Below are positions 26,046 through 36,374 of a stretch of DNA of 64,000 nt, piece by piece; position 1 is the first letter of the stretch, and the number at the start of each line of letters is the position of its first letter. Origin of the DNA: an uncultured delta proteobacterium (lineage in GTDB: Bacteria > Myxococcota_A > UBA9160 > JAFDET01). The notes beneath the pieces were generated by a model. That model saw only the letters and a list, made by a program, of their open reading frames with translations. It did no database searches and was not told where the DNA came from. The DNA is taken from NCBI GenBank assembly GCA_947259215.1, contig CAMYLJ010000011.1:114531-178530 (forward strand). The letters are read 5' to 3'. Made by a program: the position numbers and the translations under genes.

Positions 26046-27794
26046 TCAGGCTTCGGGCGGCGCCGCGGGTAGCTCGATCGTGAAGCGGGTGCCGTGCCCC
26101 TCCTGGGACTCCACCTCGAGCTCACCCCCGTGCTTGCGCACGATCTCGTAGCAGGCCGGGAGGCCGATCCCGAGGCCGCCCGAGGGCAGGTCGGGTGCGA
26201 ACACCGGATCGAAGAGCCGCTCCACCGCGTCCGGGGACATGCCGCCCCCGTCGTCGTAGACGTGCACGCGCACCTGATCGGCGTCGCCGTCCGTGTGGAC
26301 GTAGATCACGCCGTCCCGCCCCACGGCGTTGGCGGCGTTCAACAGCAGGTTCAGGAAGAGCTGGCGCAGCTCCTGGGGGGCGCAGAGCACGGGCGGGATC
26401 TCGGCGTAGCTCTGCTCCAGGCGTGCTCCCCGATACTTCAGCTTGGGCTCGGCCACGTGCGCGGCGCTCTGCACCAGCTCGTTCACGTCGGCCAGCTCGC
26501 GCTCGCCGAGGCCCGCATGGGAGAAGCTGCGCACCGACTCGACCAGCCGTGAGATGCGCTCCACGCCCTCCAGGGATTCCTCGATCACCTCGGAGCCCTC
26601 GCCCACGACGCCGGCCAGCGCGGGCTCGTCCTCGCCCACGCTGCCCTCGAAGCGACCCCACAGGCGCCGCAGCTCGAAGAGGTTGGCCTTCATGAAGGCG
26701 ATCGGATTGTTCACCTCGTGAACCACGCCGGCCGCGAGCTCTCCCATGGCGGCGAGACGACCCGTGGTGACCAGCCGGTTGCGCATGGCCCGGGTCTCGC
26801 GCATGTCGCGGATCGCGAAGACGCGGCCGATGGGCGAGTCGGAGCGATCGCGCAACACGCTGGAGGAGACCGACACCGGGATCTGACGCCCCGACGCGTC
26901 CAGCAGCCCCAGGTCCAGGCCTCGCAGCTCCAGACCGGAGCCGTCGGAGAGCTCCGGCAGGAAGGTCCGCAGGGACACCCCCGCCAGCGCCTCGGCGGGG
27001 AGTCCCACCAGGCGCGCGAGCGCATCGTTGGCCACGGCGATCTCGCCCCCGGTGCCGAGCAACGCCGCACCGTCGGGCAGGGCTCCGAGGATCCGCTCCG
27101 CCAGCGCATTGGGCGTCAGCACGAAGTAGTCGTGCCGCGCCAGCCCCTGGGCCAGGATGCCCGCGAAGAGCACGATGCTCGCGCTGCCGAGCCGCGGGCC
27201 GCGGATCTCCAGCGCGGGCAGGAGCACGTCGGTCACCAGCGCCGCCACGATCGTAAACGCGATGGCCGAGATACCGAGTCGGGCCTGGCGCCGCTCCAGG
27301 GCGGACGCGGCCGGGTTGAGGAGCTTGTGCCAGCGCACCACGCCCAGCACGGCCCAGAACACCGCCGGCCCGCAGACCAGCGGGAAGAGCGGTCCCAGCT
27401 CATAGCTCCAGCCCCAGTCCGTGGGCACAGCGCGCGCCAAGCCGAGGTCGGTCGTCAGGTAGAGCAGCGCCGACGCCGCGGCGAAGACGTAGGCCCCGGG
27501 CAGCGCCTTCCGGGCCCAGGACCGCGCGTCGTCCTGCACTTCGAGCACCATGTGGAGCACCAGCGGGCCGAGGAAGAACCAGCCGAAGCCCGAGAGGCGA
27601 ATCGTACGGATCACCCACACGGGATCGTCCAGGTTGTTCCAGACGGTCTCGCAGAAGGACCAGTGTGCGGCGCAGGCCAGCATGGCGGCCATCAGGCGGT
27701 TGCTGCGTTCGCCCGGTCCACGCACGAAGACCGCCGCGGCCAGGCTCGCCGCGACCAGGCAGGCGGCGAGCGAGATCAGGCTGATGGGCGTCAC
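26046..27794 (-). CDS. 7TM-PAS histidine kinase (second of a tandem pair)
   Basis: 582 residues; GTG 27794 overlaps the stop of the upstream kinase by four bases. An N-terminal seven-helix membrane domain (about 1-235) of the HisKA_7TM type includes LYLTTDLGLARAVPTDWGW. Then comes a PAS domain (ALPDGAALLGTGGEIAVANDALARLVGL), the phosphoacceptor box VVHEVNNPIAFMKANL with His359, and the ATPase domain: N box LFLNLLLNAANAV, G1 DDGGGMSPD, and the G2 loop SGGLGIGLPACYEI. The G2 segment is shorter than in the partner kinase. Same layout as the next gene, so likely a duplicate. No response regulator is in the window. Confidence 0.9.
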   Translation of the reverse strand: MTPISLISLAACLVAASLAAAVFVRGPGERSNRLMAAMLACAAHWSFCETVWNNLDDPVWVIRTIRLSGFGWFFLGPLVLHMVLEVQDDARSWARKALPGAYVFAAASALLYLTTDLGLARAVPTDWGWSYELGPLFPLVCGPAVFWAVLGVVRWHKLLNPAASALERRQARLGISAIAFTIVAALVTDVLLPALEIRGPRLGSASIVLFAGILAQGLARHDYFVLTPNALAERILGALPDGAALLGTGGEIAVANDALARLVGLPAEALAGVSLRTFLPELSDGSGLELRGLDLGLLDASGRQIPVSVSSSVLRDRSDSPIGRVFAIRDMRETRAMRNRLVTTGRLAAMGELAAGVVHEVNNPIAFMKANLFELRRLWGRFEGSVGEDEPALAGVVGEGSEVIEESLEGVERISRLVESVRSFSHAGLGERELADVNELVQSAAHVAEPKLKYRGARLEQSYAEIPPVLCAPQELRQLFLNLLLNAANAVGRDGVIYVHTDGDADQVRVHVYDDGGGMSPDAVERLFDPVFAPDLPSGGLGIGLPACYEIVRKHGGELEVESQEGHGTRFTIELPAAPPEA

Positions 27795-29551
27795 CGGCCC
27801 ATCTCCGGCGCGTCGCCGCGGGGCAATCGGATCGCAAAGCGCGTGCCCAGGGCCGGATCGGAGCGGACACTGAGCTCGCCTCCGTGGTCGCGCACGATCT
27901 GGCGCGAGATGGCCAGCCCGAGCCCCGTGCCCTCGCCGACGGCCTTGGTGGTAAAGAACGGATCGAAGATGCGCTCGATCACCTCGGCCGGGATGCCGCT
28001 GCCATCGTCCTCCACGTGGATCGACACGGCGTCGCCGTCGTCCGCGGTGTGGACCGTGATGGTCCCGCGCTCTCCCACGGCCTGGGCCGCATTGCTCAGG
28101 AGGTTCAGGAAGACCTGCACCAGCTGCTGGGGCGCGCACGCCAGGGGAGCCAGCTCGCCGTAGCGGCGCTCGACGCGCACGCCGTCGCGCAGGGTCGGCA
28201 GCAGCACCCGCAGCGCCTCCTCACACAGGCGATTCACGTCGACGCTCTCCCGCTCCCGGTAGCCCGCGCCCGAGAAGCGCTGGACGTCGCGCACGATCGC
28301 GGCCACCCGGTCGGCGCCGTCGCGGGTCTCCTGGACCAGCTCGTGCCCCTCCTTCAGCTCTTCGGCCAGGGTCTCGTCGCGGCTCGTCTGGGCGGCCTTT
28401 TCGAGGGCGTCGAGGTCGCGCGACAGCACACCCAGGTTGCTGCGGATGTAGGCAATGGGGTTGTTGATCTCGTGCGTGATCGCCGCCGCCAGCTCGCCCA
28501 CCGCCGCGAGGCGCCCGGTGGTCACGAGCCGGGTGCGCAGCTGCACGACCCGGTACAGATCGCGCACCGTCACGACGTGCCCGATCCGGGTGCCGCGCCT
28601 CTCGCGCAGGGCCGACGACGAGACGGCCACGAGCGAGGCGCTCCCGTCCGCGGCGAGCAGCTCGCACTCGACGGCGTCGAGGTCGCGCGTGGGGTCGAAG
28701 TCCGGCCCGCGCACGAACTCCGCCAGCACGCGGCCGCGCAGCGGCTCGCGCTCGCGGTCGAGCAGCTGGGCGAGATTCCGATTGGCGGAGCGGATGCGGC
28801 CGTCCCGGTCGAGCAGGGCAACGCCGTCGGGGAACACCTCGAAGATCTCCTTGGCCAGGACCCCGGGCGTCACCACCGTGTAGCCGTAGCGGTACATCGC
28901 CCACAGGCCTCCGGCCACGGCGAGCGCGACGCTCGCGCTCCCCAGGCGCGGGAAGGCGACGCCCGCCAGCGGCAGCACCACCTCCGTCAGCGGTGCCACG
29001 ACCATCGGGAACACCGCGAACGCGTAGAGGGGCCGGATCCGAGTCAGCCAGACGGCACCGGGCCGTTCCCGGCGCCGCGCAGCCGCGACGGCGAGCGCCG
29101 CGGGCCAGCCCGCCGCCCACGCGAGGGCCACGCCGAAGGCCGGACCGAAGCGAGGCGACCAGCCCCAGGGCACGCGCTCGACGCCCGCGATGAACCAGGG
29201 CGTTCCCAGGTAGAGCAGCGCCAGCAGGGCGCTGACGGCGTACACCCCGGGCAGCCAGCGGCCGAGCCGCGACGCGCGGCCCGCGTGGGCGGAGCCCACC
29301 ACGAACAGATGCAGGCTCAGCGGCGCGAACCCCAGGACCCCCAGGCCCGCCAGGCGGGCGAAGGCCAGCGCCGACTCCGGCGAGGCGGCGCCGTTCCAGA
29401 ACAGCTCGCAGGTGGCCCACACGGCATTCGCGGCCACCACGCCCGCCAGCAGGCGATTGCCGCTGCCGTGCGGATCGCGGGCGTAGATCGCGCTCGCCAT
29501 CGCGCAGGAGGCGATGCCGGTCGCCAACGGAATCAGGGCGTACGGGTGCAT
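27791..29551 (-). CDS. 7TM-PAS histidine kinase (first of a tandem pair)
   Basis: 586 residues from ATG 29551. A seven-helix membrane sensor (about 1-240, including LYLGTPWFIAGVERVPWGW) is followed by PAS (VFPDGVALLDRDGRIRSANRNLAQLL), the H box ITHEINNPIAYIRSNL with His360, then the ATPase domain: N box FLNLLSNAAQAV, G1 DDGSGIPAE, F box FDPFFTTKAVGEGTGLGLA. All catalytic boxes are intact. In both kinases an aromatic PWGW or DWGW motif sits in the same extracellular loop, so the two may sense the same ligand, possibly as a heterodimer. It follows the ATP-grasp gene by 104 bases. Confidence 0.9.
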   Translation of the reverse strand: MHPYALIPLATGIASCAMASAIYARDPHGSGNRLLAGVVAANAVWATCELFWNGAASPESALAFARLAGLGVLGFAPLSLHLFVVGSAHAGRASRLGRWLPGVYAVSALLALLYLGTPWFIAGVERVPWGWSPRFGPAFGVALAWAAGWPAALAVAAARRRERPGAVWLTRIRPLYAFAVFPMVVAPLTEVVLPLAGVAFPRLGSASVALAVAGGLWAMYRYGYTVVTPGVLAKEIFEVFPDGVALLDRDGRIRSANRNLAQLLDREREPLRGRVLAEFVRGPDFDPTRDLDAVECELLAADGSASLVAVSSSALRERRGTRIGHVVTVRDLYRVVQLRTRLVTTGRLAAVGELAAAITHEINNPIAYIRSNLGVLSRDLDALEKAAQTSRDETLAEELKEGHELVQETRDGADRVAAIVRDVQRFSGAGYRERESVDVNRLCEEALRVLLPTLRDGVRVERRYGELAPLACAPQQLVQVFLNLLSNAAQAVGERGTITVHTADDGDAVSIHVEDDGSGIPAEVIERIFDPFFTTKAVGEGTGLGLAISRQIVRDHGGELSVRSDPALGTRFAIRLPRGDAPEMGR

Positions 29552-29655
29552 CGGGTCGGGGTCCGCTCCGCATCCCTCTTCGGCAGGACGCGGGGCGACC
29601 CTGGGTCGCGTGAGACGCGAAACTGGAGCGAAAACGCGATGCGCCGCTGGCGGGG

Positions 29656-30681
29656 TCAGGCGCGCTTCCACTGCGGCCGGTAGCGCATGCCCAGGTCGAG
29701 GATGCGCTGGATCAGGTCCGGGTAGGCGACGCCGGCGGTCTTCGCCGAGCGCGCGAGATCCTCGTCCCGTTGGACGTCGGGCGTGGCGTTGGCCTCCAGC
29801 ACCCAGGCGCGCCCGTCGGGAGCCAGCCGCAGGTCGATGCGCGCGTACCCGCAGAGCCCGAGCGCACGGTAGATGCGCCGGGCCACGCTCGCGATGCGCT
29901 CGGCAGCGCCTTCGGGCAGGTCTCGCGCCGGGCCGGTGTGGATCCCGACCTTCTTCTGGTACGCCAGGTCGTGCTTGGCCCGATCGGTGGCGATGGGAAT
30001 CGTTCCCTCGGGCAGGTTGCGGAACTCCATCTCCCACACGGGGAACGTCTCGAGCCGGGTGTTGCCGAGCACGCTGATCGTCAGCTCGCGCCCGTCCACG
30101 TACTGCTCCGCCAGCGCGTCGCTGCCCACCTTCTCGTGGATGAACTTCACCCGCTCCTGGAGCTGCTCCTCGCTGCGCACCACCGACGCCTGGGCGATCC
30201 CGAGCGACGCCTCCTCGTCCACCGACTTCACGATCAGCGGAAAGCCGAGGCGCTTGGGCGCCCGGATCCGCCCGCCGGGCGAGAACACCCGGAAGTTCGG
30301 CGTGGGGATGTGGTGGTAGCGGAGGATCTGCTTGGACACGGCCTTGTCGCGCGCCAGCAGGATGCCCCGCGAGTTGCAGCCGGTGCTGGGCACGCCGAGC
30401 AGCTCGAGATAGCTCGCCACGTGGACCTGGAACGCGCCCACGTCCCGGAACTCCATCAGCAGATTGAAGACGACGTGGGGCTGCCATTCCTCCACGAGCT
30501 GGCGGATCGGCCGCAGGTCGTCGGAGATGCCCAGGAAGCGCGCCTCGTGCTTCAGCTCTCGCAGCGCACGCATCACGTCCCACTCCGTGGCCCAGGCCTC
30601 GATCTCCTGCTCGCTGTGGCCCTTCAGGGTCTCGGGCGGGATCAGGTCCTCGTGGGTCAGGACGGCGACGCGGAGGCTCAT
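29656..30681 (-). CDS. ATP-grasp ligase (D-Ala-D-Ala ligase-like)
   Basis: 341 residues; its ATG overlaps the stop of the metallopeptidase gene (ATGA). An N-terminal Rossmann part (VVFNLLMEFRDV; YLELLGVPSTGCNSRGILLARDK) is followed by the ATP-grasp domain: FPLIVKSVDEEASLGIAQ binds the triphosphate, EQYVDGRELTISVLG provides the adenine and Mg contacts, and YARIDLRLAPDGRAWVLEANATPD carries the metal-binding E-x-N. ATP-grasp enzymes make amide or peptide bonds via acyl-phosphate. This one is not Ddl: it has an unfamiliar middle and C-terminal part. The coupling to a peptidase hints at a peptide-bond-making and -breaking pair. Substrate unknown. Confidence 0.85.
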   Translation of the reverse strand: MSLRVAVLTHEDLIPPETLKGHSEQEIEAWATEWDVMRALRELKHEARFLGISDDLRPIRQLVEEWQPHVVFNLLMEFRDVGAFQVHVASYLELLGVPSTGCNSRGILLARDKAVSKQILRYHHIPTPNFRVFSPGGRIRAPKRLGFPLIVKSVDEEASLGIAQASVVRSEEQLQERVKFIHEKVGSDALAEQYVDGRELTISVLGNTRLETFPVWEMEFRNLPEGTIPIATDRAKHDLAYQKKVGIHTGPARDLPEGAAERIASVARRIYRALGLCGYARIDLRLAPDGRAWVLEANATPDVQRDEDLARSAKTAGVAYPDLIQRILDLGMRYRPQWKRA

Positions 30682-31748
30682 CGGAAGAGCTCCCGGTGCC
30701 GCACGGGCCAGAGGTGTGCGGCGTGCACCGTCAGCACCACGGCCGCACCCTCGCCGCTCTCGCGCTCCGAGTGGGCGAGCCGCAGGCCCAGCACGCGGCA
30801 GCGGTGGATCATGCCCTTGAGCACGTCGTCCACCACGAAGCGGTGCTGGCCGGTCCACTCCGCCACCAGACTCACCAGCTCGCGGCGCCGCTCGTTCAGG
30901 AACGACACCGCGGACTTGCGCCGGCGATGGGAAGGATCGTCCGAGAACAGGTACAGCAGGTCGTCGTCGTAGACCTCGTAGTCCTCCTCCCCGTAGTGCT
31001 CGCGCTTGAGCTCGTAGTACTCGCGCAGGGTCATGCGCAGCCGGGGCAGCGAGTCCGGGCGCTCGCGTGAGCGCACGGGCGGCGGTCGGCCGGCGATCTC
31101 GCGCATCAGCTCGTCCACGTACTCGAGCTTCTTCAGGGCCCCGGTGCCGCGGTAGGTGCGGCGCCAGCGGCTTCCCGGGCGCAGCCAGACCGCGAAGGTC
31201 TCAGCGAAGTCCTCCACCGGGTGGCTCTGGGCGTAGAAGTTGTAGAGGTGGAAGACGTGGCGGGTGCTCCCGGGGTCGGGCACGTAGGTGGGCCGGTAGG
31301 GCGTGCTGGCGCGCCCGAAGACCTCGCGCCAGCGCTTGCGGCGACGCAGCCGGTAGGCGTGGTCCAGCGCGTGACCGGCCTCGTGACGCAGCAGCTTGCG
31401 CTGCCAGCCCAGGTTGCCGCCCTCGACCTCCAGCATCTGCTGGCGCTCCAGTCGCGCCAGGCGCGGGTGGGCCAGGTAGAAGGGGATCGCGAAGCCCGGC
31501 ACGCCCTCGGGCGAGAACCAGTCGGTGGAGAGCCAGATGTGGGGTCGGATGGAGAGGCCCGCCCGCGCCAGCTCGGCATGCAGCTCGCGTACGCGATCCT
31601 CGAGCGGCGTGCCCTCGAGCTTCAGGCCCAGGTCGCACAGGCGCAGGTCGAGGAGCTCCTGGTCGCGAAGCCCCTCCCACGGGAAGCGGGTGTCGGGGCG
31701 CCGCCGGCCCGTCGCGCTCGCGGCTCCCCCGCGACCGATCCGTCTCAT
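30678..31748 (-). CDS. Putative zinc metallopeptidase (HEAGH)
   Basis: 356 residues from ATG 31748, apparently cytosolic. The zinc motif HEAGHALDH lies at about 122-130; a third ligand is likely the Glu in DFAETFAVWL near 180-189. The layout (HExxH, ~55 residues, D-x-A-E-x-F) resembles the putative zinc-binding metallopeptidase families that are often found next to ATP-grasp genes. The C-terminal part is rich in Arg and Tyr (RREHYGEEDYEVYDDD) with no known domain. The next gene, an ATP-grasp ligase, is translationally coupled. Substrate and role unknown. Confidence 0.75.
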   Translation of the reverse strand: MRRIGRGGAASATGRRRPDTRFPWEGLRDQELLDLRLCDLGLKLEGTPLEDRVRELHAELARAGLSIRPHIWLSTDWFSPEGVPGFAIPFYLAHPRLARLERQQMLEVEGGNLGWQRKLLRHEAGHALDHAYRLRRRKRWREVFGRASTPYRPTYVPDPGSTRHVFHLYNFYAQSHPVEDFAETFAVWLRPGSRWRRTYRGTGALKKLEYVDELMREIAGRPPPVRSRERPDSLPRLRMTLREYYELKREHYGEEDYEVYDDDLLYLFSDDPSHRRRKSAVSFLNERRRELVSLVAEWTGQHRFVVDDVLKGMIHRCRVLGLRLAHSERESGEGAAVVLTVHAAHLWPVRHRELFR

Positions 31749-34749: not shown

Positions 34750-35126
34750 CTGCTGGCGCGATCTAGCGCTGCCAAGAACGCAGCCAATAATCCCTATGCC
34801 CCGCTCGCTGATGGTTTTGAGTCCGGGCTCCCTGGACATGACGATGCGCTTCCTTCAATCGTGACCTTGGCCGTACGGCCGGTCAGGACGCGGGTGGTCC
34901 GAGCTGCTGCGGCGCGTTTTCGCGTTCGACGTCCTCGAGTGCCGTAGGCGACGCCTTTGCGCGCAGCTGTTTCTTTTCGGCTGGCGTAGCGATCTGCGCC
35001 ACGCCTACGCCTTTTTCCCGGTTCTCGAGCAAGCGAACTACCGAGTAGCGGCCCCTCGCGGCGCTCGAATGGGTAATTCGCCCGAGCATTTTCAAGCCGA
35101 TCCTCCGACGACCGAAAAACGACGCC
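34750..35126. other. Gene-free gap of lower G+C
   Basis: 377 bases with runs of T and A (for example TTTTTCCCGG near 35010 and GAAAAACGACG before the ATG at 35127) unlike the flanks. No start with an RBS, no tRNA-like cloverleaf, and no repeat was seen. A minus-strand open frame crossing it and the collagen gene start looks accidental. It marks the left edge of the atypical collagen island. Confidence 0.5.
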
Positions 35127-36374
35127 ATGGAGCGCGCGACGATCCGGCTTCGCTGCACAGGGTCCACTCGCCTTCGGGCAAGCTGGAGCCTGGCGATCTT
35201 CCTCATCGCACCCGCCCTCCTCTTTGCGGGCGCGGCTGGCGCCGGCCCGTTCGCGGTCGACTACCTGCTCGAGAAGAAGAATTTCCAGAAGCAGACCCGC
35301 GCGGACTCGCTCCTCACCTTCGAGCTCTACAGCGACAACGCCTGCACGACCCTCTTGCACAGCGAGACTCTCTTCGCGGCGGATTCGTTCATCACCTACA
35401 ACAAGGTGAAGCTCCAGCGGGTGAAGGGCGGGCCGAAGCCGCCGAAGGGGATCGGCCTGCACGCCGTGCTGAATCCGCCCCCCCTGGCCGCCGCCCCCTA
35501 TCTCGCGGTGAACGGGCCCGGCATGCTCGCCGCCGGAGAAACCTGTCAACTCCAGGCGGGGACCGGTACCGGCGGCGCGGGCGCGGCCGGAGCAACCGGC
35601 CCCGCCGGACCTCCCGGTGCCGACGGCGCGATTGGACCCGCCGGAGCAACCGGTGCCGACGGCGCGACCGGACCCGCTGGAGCGACCGGACCCGCCGGTG
35701 CCGACGGCGCGATTGGACCCGCCGGACCCGCCGGAGCGACCGGACCCGCCGGTGCCGACGGCGCGATTGGGCCCCCCGGTGCCGACGGAGCGATCGGACC
35801 CGCCGGACCCGCTGGAGCGACGGGACCCGCCGGTGCCGACGGAGCGACCGGATCTCCCGGTGCCGACGGCGCGATCGGACCCGCCGGACCCGCTGGAGCG
35901 ACCGGACCCGCCGGTGCCGACGGAGCGACCGGACCCCCCGGTGCCGACGGCGCGATTGGACCTGCCGGACCCGCCGGACCGACCGGACCCACGGGCGCGT
36001 CCGGCTTCGAAGACTACGAGTATTCCGAGAGCGAGGGGGAGAGCATCACCAGCTCGACCACTTACGTAATGAAGCACCGGATGACCACCAGCTCGTTGAC
36101 GGCCGGCAACTACAGGATCGGCTACAGCCTGGAGCTCCGCAGCGGGGGGCACGATGACCACTCGTCGGTGCGCGTGCAGATCGACGACACCACGACGATC
36201 GCCGAGGCCGGGGATGCCAAGACCAAGACCGACGGCCAGTTCACTGCGGTCTCGGGCTTCCGCACCGTGGGCCTCGCGGGCGGTGTGCACACGATCGACG
36301 TGGACTTCCAGAGGGACGACGGCACCGACGCGTACCTCCGGCGCGTGCGACTGGAGCTACAGCCGGTCCCCTAG
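35127..36374 (+). CDS. Collagen-like secreted protein
   Basis: 415 residues. A signal peptide with an extended N-region (cleavage near [10 protein letters not shown]) precedes an N-terminal globular domain of about 110 residues ([29 protein letters not shown]-like). Residues about 150-292 are some 47 uninterrupted Gly-X-Y triplets, mostly G-P-A, G-A-D, G-A-T and G-A-I, which would form a collagen triple helix. The C-terminus ([21 protein letters not shown] to the end) is a beta-rich domain with SLELRSGG and [18 protein letters not shown], likely a trimerisation or head domain. Such proteins form surface filaments. The G-x-y codons are repetitive at DNA level, so length may vary between strains. 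Confidence 0.85.
35709..35951 (+). repeat. 81-bp tandem repeat in the collagen-like gene
   Basis: Three in-frame copies of 81 bases (27 residues, nine triplets) begin at 35709, 35790 and 35871, each reading [18 protein letters not shown] plus a variable nine-residue end ([27 protein letters not shown]). A fourth, diverged partial copy follows to about 36005. Such exact DNA periodicity is prone to slippage. Confidence 0.85.

Follow-up and report, generated by a model that had tools for sequence, protein, structure and literature searches.

A two-gene peptidase and ATP-grasp ligase module beside tandem 7TM histidine kinases, relatives of pairs with complementary catalytic losses, in an uncultured delta proteobacterium

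Four neighbouring genes of an uncultured delta proteobacterium, encoding a metallopeptidase, an ATP-grasp ligase and two tandem 7TM-PAS histidine kinases, are two separable modules, an enzyme pair (module A) and a kinase pair (module B), that are neighbours only in this organism's own bacterial family. The enzyme pair is an autonomous two-gene module, conserved in order and in its active sites. In a sister family the tandem kinases have lost their catalytic sites reciprocally, the first of each pair keeping the histidine site and the second the ATP site, which suggests, as far as residues can tell, that complementary point losses have given rise to a heteromeric ‘split’ histidine kinase. With a modest preference, we lean towards reading the separable modules as a make-and-break enzyme couple and a heteromeric membrane sensor.

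Results

The window, by which we mean the whole stretch of 64,000 nucleotides that was analysed, comes from a draft genome (5.7 Mb in 128 contigs). Its four genes lie on the minus strand in the order peptidase, ATP-grasp ligase, kinase 1 (HK1) and kinase 2 (HK2), and all of them, together with the overlap of the two enzyme genes and the GTGA overlap of the two kinase genes, are present where a preliminary description of this DNA had placed them (Table 1). A gap of 104 bp separates the stop of the ligase gene from the start of the first kinase gene. Upstream of the block lies a divergent aldehyde dehydrogenase gene, and downstream lie sulfatase and family 3 glycosidase genes. None of the four proteins has a match in the PADLOC-DB defence library. 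Elsewhere in the window, a minus-strand open frame (34794-36290) translates as long Gly-Ser/Gly-Thr-rich repeats and may do no more than mirror a repetitive gene of the opposite strand.

Table 1. Positions in the window of the four genes and of the overlap between the enzyme genes.
Feature	Position	Strand	Description
Peptidase (module A, gene 1)	30678..31748	-	356 aa, cytosolic Peptidase_Mx-type zincin metallopeptidase
ATGA stop/start overlap, peptidase/ATP-grasp	30678..30681	-	joins both enzyme genes
ATP-grasp ligase (module A, gene 2)	29656..30681	-	341 aa, Ddl fold, changed acceptor pocket
Kinase 1 (HK1, module B ‘first’)	27791..29551	-	586 aa, 7TM-PAS-HisKA-HATPase, catalytically complete by motifs
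Kinase 2 (HK2, module B ‘second’)	26046..27794	-	582 aa; His box kept, ATP lid and G2 box degenerate

A scan for the peptidase with one genome per species found 175 encoding stretches, 80 of which were kept. The homologues come from Planctomycetota, Alphaproteobacteria (many of them Bradyrhizobium), Gemmatimonadota and Myxococcota, with a further one from an Acidobacteria MAG contig that showed no neighbouring ligase; the plasmid collection yielded no homologue. An ATP-grasp gene is also held by 105 of 110 peptidase loci, and in every one of these 105 it comes directly after the peptidase gene, adjacent, on one strand and in one order, most commonly with a four-base overlap (68/105), so that the earlier claim of two families linked as a unit stands. 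Removal of near copies leaves 59 pairs, all within 150 bp and 30 of them with the four-base overlap, and the two proteins share their inheritance, their distance matrices being correlated at r=0.94 with none of 1000 permutations as high. Within the phylum sample the peptidase has a patchy distribution (45 of 284 genomes, with a strong match in 43), and in 38 of the 43 strong-match genomes the ligase adjoins it in the usual order. Among the rest, one has the order swapped (G203), two hold both genes within 3 kb on opposite strands (G178, G256), one has the peptidase at a contig end (G094) and one has the two genes unlinked (G269); among the named loci, L042 and L084 have a peptidase with no adjoining ligase. 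The association thus survives rearrangement, and a shared function of peptidase and ligase can therefore be argued. One genome (G159) encodes an ATP-grasp homologue of 44% identity (L175, 8468-9469 of G159:C23) and no detectable partner peptidase.

The ligase has the fold of Ddl and its ATP- and Mg-binding residues, and has not kept the residues of the D-Ala pocket. It matches Pfam Dala_Dala_lig_C (PF07478) at 92.6 bits, and its AlphaFold model (mean pLDDT 92.7) has DdlA as best Foldseek match over the whole length (E=5.9e-26, TM about 0.76-0.85). In an alignment of 47 ligases with E. coli DdlB as the reference, residues K97, K144, E180, E187, R255, D257, E270 and N272 of DdlB are kept in 47/47, the invariant residues being K113/K152/E199/R281/D283/E296/N298 in the numbering of the window ligase. 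The positions which, from established knowledge of DdlB, we take to be those holding the D-Ala carboxylate behave otherwise: that of G276 is occupied by E, D, N, Q or Y, that of S281 by E in 44/47 and that of S150 by A, S or G (A in 31/47), and E15 is unconserved. Y216 aligns to a Y in 44/47, and the adjacent K215 is not kept, so that the alignment of this loop is uncertain. An acid at the place of carboxylate binding in Ddl suggests that the acceptor is cationic or has no carboxylate; it would be an amine other than D-Ala, probably cationic or belonging to a larger molecule. The fold and the family match to Ddl could also be taken as the mark of a secondary cell-wall ligase of the D-Ala-D-Ala or D-Ala-D-Lac type, a reading that we find extremely improbable given that the protein scores far under the cut-offs of the NCBIfam Ddl and Van models (best 126.5 bits, cut-off 243), that none of E15, S150, G276 and S281 is conserved, and that a normal Ddl is encoded elsewhere in the same genome (on contig C12). 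Unlike Ddl, moreover, the ligase has a fixed partner peptidase gene. The phylum also has double Ddl-like ATP-grasp proteins of about 700 aa with two homologous halves (L179 6685-8862 and others), which are related but distinct families.

The peptidase matches Pfam Peptidase_Mx (PF15887) at 29.8 bits (cut-off 27) over only about 70 of its residues. It carries HEAGH at aa 122-126 and EDFAETFAVW at aa 179-188, and H122, E123, H126, E179, D180 and E183 are invariant in an alignment of 51 diverse sequences, as would suit an HExxH zinc motif with a downstream acidic residue as the putative third ligand. Its AlphaFold model (mean pLDDT 90.9) gave by Foldseek no structural relative over the whole length, and weak matches to the zincin core only of 4l7a, PPEP-1 and anthrax lethal factor. 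The likeness to lethal factor and PPEP-1 was set aside, as its E values are 0.06 or worse and only the zincin core is shared, and these fold matches say nothing on toxicity. The match to 4l7a, the solved Peptidase_Mx structure from Bacteroides caccae, is weak in profile as well as in fold, and in comparison with the Pfam family the window peptidase adds a helical C-terminal region, has no membrane or signal segment and belongs to a family nearly always paired with an ATP-grasp gene. Neither the peptidase nor the ligase has a clear membrane segment. Catalytic inactivation among the homologues, which the preliminary description had named as evidence against its proposal, did not appear: the active-site residues of both enzymes are not lost. 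Judged by residue conservation, then, module A would consist of a cytosolic zinc hydrolase and an amide ligase, both of them active.

The kinases are not part of this conserved unit. Within the window's own family they follow the enzyme pair in G285, where the block is kept, are separated from it in G286 by a 2.7 kb metal-transport insertion, and in G207 lie on contigs where both modules reach the ends, which is compatible with a block across a contig break. The insert of G286 (L132 2744-5259, G286:C137) carries genes for a CsoR-like regulator and a metal P-type ATPase. Outside that family, none of the other loci holding the pair has a related kinase adjoining it, many phylum loci of the first search reaching only 1.5 kb past the peptidase and the 80 named and 20 later-fetched loci reaching further. 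In the other families of the order, different genes surround the tandem kinases, namely a PEP-mutase/isocitrate-lyase-family gene immediately downstream of the second kinase in 10 loci (among L134-L146), a DUF3516 helicase gene nearby in 8 loci, and AmtB and P-II genes close by in several.

These neighbourhoods bear on the earlier view of the block as an unfamiliar four-gene cluster, of which the enzyme pair has held and the kinases, adjoining it only in the window's family, have dropped out. They bear equally on the proposal that all four genes form a single operon-encoded system for making, cleaving and sensing a peptide-like molecule. Such a system would fit the single strand, the short gap between ligase and HK1, and the block that is kept in G285, interrupted in G286 and compatible with G207. 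It is at odds with the absence of related kinases beside the pair at the other loci that hold it, with the CsoR-like and P-type ATPase genes that split the modules in G286, and with the different company that the kinases keep in other families of the order; adjacency did not prove to be conserved beyond the window's family, and we regard the single system as highly unlikely. The preliminary description had asked which response regulator accompanies these families; none was seen among the conserved neighbours of the enzyme pair or of the kinases.

Both window kinases have PAS, HisKA and HATPase_c domains by Pfam, and their sensors are 36% identical. Against HisKA_7TM (PF16927; cut-off 28.6), HK2 scores 43.6 bits and HK1 scores 19.4 bits, aligned over the whole model. 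This type of sensor was found, within the phylum sample, only in this class. The W-G-W element noticed earlier is indeed present in both kinases (PWGW at aa 128-131 of HK1, DWGW at aa 126-129 of HK2); as a mark specific to the pair it was dropped, since solo relatives commonly have W-G-W or W-G-Y and it is thus a family trait. HK1 is catalytically complete by motifs, with HEINNP (aa 360-365), FDPFFTTK (aa 529-536) and GTGLGL (aa 541-546, in the G2 box GEGTGLGL). HK2 keeps HEVNNP (aa 359-364) and has no normal ATP lid, reading FDPVFAPD (aa 528-535) and GGLGIGL (aa 539-545, in the G2 box SGGLGIGL), through which unusual lid it could still bind ATP; the preliminary description had missed this degeneracy of the lid and the G2 box. 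The lid of HK2 is lost in G207 and G285 too.

Comparison of the H, N, G1, F and G2 boxes in 32 tandem and 42 solo kinases of the 7TM family reveals how differently the two kinds have fared. Nearly all solo kinases are intact (41/42), and the tandem ones divide into 6 that are intact, 15 with the His site only, 11 with the ATP site only and none without both. The single exception among the solo kinases (L192, 3356-5185 of G259:C22) has a lost ATP site, with Q in the N-box and the lid FDPVVGAD, and no partner kinase for it was found within 8 kb. In the sister family f4, whose genomes are drafts with approximate gene starts, all 11 complete pairs are reciprocal and in the same gene order (L134-L141, L143, L145, L146): the first kinases keep HE[VL]NNP and have lost the lid, the G2 box or the N-box, and the second have lost the His site, where His is replaced by G, N, E, D, T or A, and keep FDPFFTTK and GxGLGL. 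The second kinase of L141 still has its His, the Glu that follows having become T, and the first kinase of L135 has a CA domain that is only partly decayed. Identity follows the same division, the H-box helix standing at 0.82 among firsts, 0.61 among seconds and 0.84 among solos, and the CA domain at 0.30, 0.58 and 0.56, respectively. Pfam detects no HATPase_c domain in the first kinases of L140 and L141 and no HisKA domain in their second kinases; in L137, L136 and L139 one sees the decay only in the individual residues. A Fisher test on the losses gives p=3e-13, a value inflated by closely related genomes and not to be read as an independent-sample probability. A better argument is the reciprocity itself, which extends over six different replacements of the His and several f4 genera. 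In G076, of family f7, both tandem kinases are intact.

When the tree of the kinases is computed on the sensor and PAS columns alone, leaving out those of the trait, the firsts all fall together and so do the seconds, whose group takes in two solo genes as well. The three labels require 3 changes on this tree, compared with 27.6 for shuffled labels; several of its inner branches are weak, the group of firsts carries no support value and a single branch is very long. HK1 of the window groups with the firsts and HK2 with the seconds. One tandem pair thus probably predates families f1 (that of the window), f4 and f7. From that pair onwards, to judge by the residues, G076 of f7 would have retained both kinases intact, f4 would have divided the labour, and f1 probably lost the second lid and kept the first kinase whole.

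Discussion

Adjacent genes, shared inheritance, intact active sites and the loss of the D-Ala pocket characterise the enzyme pair, in which the ligase probably makes an amide bond and the peptidase is the enzyme that would cut it. The ATP-grasp enzyme would activate a carboxylate as acyl phosphate and join it to an amine other than D-Ala, and the zinc peptidase would trim a precursor or hydrolyse the product of the ligase, so that together they would control how much there is, in the cytosol, of a single amide-linked compound or protein modification. The common substrate, the cationic nature of the acceptor and the direction of such a cycle are what we infer, and it is adjacency that points to the substrate being shared. 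The literature searched gives no function for the ligase-peptidase pair, which is weak evidence of novelty as most subscription journals were not covered. RimK with its partner genes and the N-acetylglutaminylglutamine amide cluster with its M42 peptidase are ligase-plus-peptidase cassettes and, as here, place an amide-forming ATP-grasp ligase beside a metal-dependent peptidase; the present pair, however, has another ligase subfamily, another peptidase clan and two genes only.

RimK is an ATP-grasp ligase that tags proteins, and peptidase genes often accompany ATP-grasp enzymes acting on proteins or peptides. In graspetides, it is peptides that ATP-grasp ligases close (PMC8939145). The existence of such ligases lends some weight to another reading of the pair, in which the ATP-grasp enzyme modifies a protein or a ribosomal peptide and the peptidase matures that substrate, and no small molecule is made and broken in a cycle. 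We hold this to be rather unlikely, considering that no small ORF of the kind expected for a RiPP-like precursor, such as stands beside the ATP-grasp gene in a graspetide cluster, is shared beyond close relatives within 700 bp either side of the pair, and that clustering of the neighbours at 80 named and 20 unnamed loci gave no third gene conserved beside it beyond close relatives.

As for the kinases, from the losses, their reciprocity and the tree we infer a heterodimer, trans-phosphorylation and a target for it. Module B would be a heteromeric sensor in the membrane that goes back to a single tandem duplication. In f4, on the simplest reading, the first subunit would supply the phospho-accepting His and keep the HExxN phosphatase motif, and the second would supply ATP and catalysis; since the His site and the ATP site are on separate subunits, phosphorylation would have to be in trans. 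We give an even chance to the view that a tandem duplicate has turned here into an obligate two-subunit kinase, in which one receptor would only accept phosphate and the other would only give it, the window's family having gone the opposite way with the loss of the lid from the second gene. A split kinase is known in Rhodobacter sphaeroides, where CheA3 and CheA4 miss whole domains and act by trans-phosphorylation, and the authors of that work, who use the HE/DxxN/T phosphatase motif, put the share of kinases that could be both split and bifunctional at up to 1.7% (PMC3591291). That motif is kept by the f4 first kinases. Like CheA3/CheA4, the f4 pairs appear to have the His and phosphatase functions on one protein and the ATP-binding part on the other, neither of which would work alone. 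CheA3/CheA4, however, are chemotaxis proteins without whole domains, whereas the twins here keep 7TM, PAS, DHp and CA and show complementary point losses. The hybrid kinase heterodimers of GacS and RetS in Pseudomonas (PMC12189002) resemble the present case in that two different membrane kinases may pair, and differ from the f4 pairs, which are tandem and have lost their catalytic sites reciprocally.

The window pair departs from CheA3/CheA4 in another respect, as its loss is on one side only: HK1 has both the His and the ATP site, and the two are thus not divided between separate proteins. Since HK1 is complete and HK2 has a His and no normal lid, HK1 could act alone and would phosphorylate itself and HK2. 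Whether HK1 also phosphorylates HK2 or HK2 is a regulatory pseudokinase seems, on the motifs, about evenly balanced. The wider proposition that HK2 is a regulatory pseudokinase, or a plain decaying copy, that modulates HK1 or is bypassed by it, would agree with this one-sided loss and with the H-box of HK2, which is also eroding in G207 and G285 (HEISSP, HEISNP). We treat it as a tentative possibility, in view of the open frames of HK2, which are kept in the window and in G207, and of the f4 pairs, with their reciprocal losses and with either half as conserved as in the solo kinases. The PEP-mutase-family, AmtB and P-II neighbours in other families (L134-L146) offer a lead, namely a nitrogen or carbon-acid signal for the receptors.

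The ligase-peptidase pair, which spans four or more bacterial phyla and shows strict conservation of the two active sites, is a compact target in the search for a new amide-bonded metabolite or protein modification. The kinase pairs are a natural experiment in degeneration and complementation after duplication, in a series that runs from intact (G076) through half-degenerate (the window's family) to fully reciprocal (11 genomes), all of them apparently orthologous, and in which trans-phosphorylation between two full-length membrane kinases becomes directly testable. If the heteromeric reading is true, a receptor of this kind would fire only when both sensors act together, and would be a natural two-input or AND gate.
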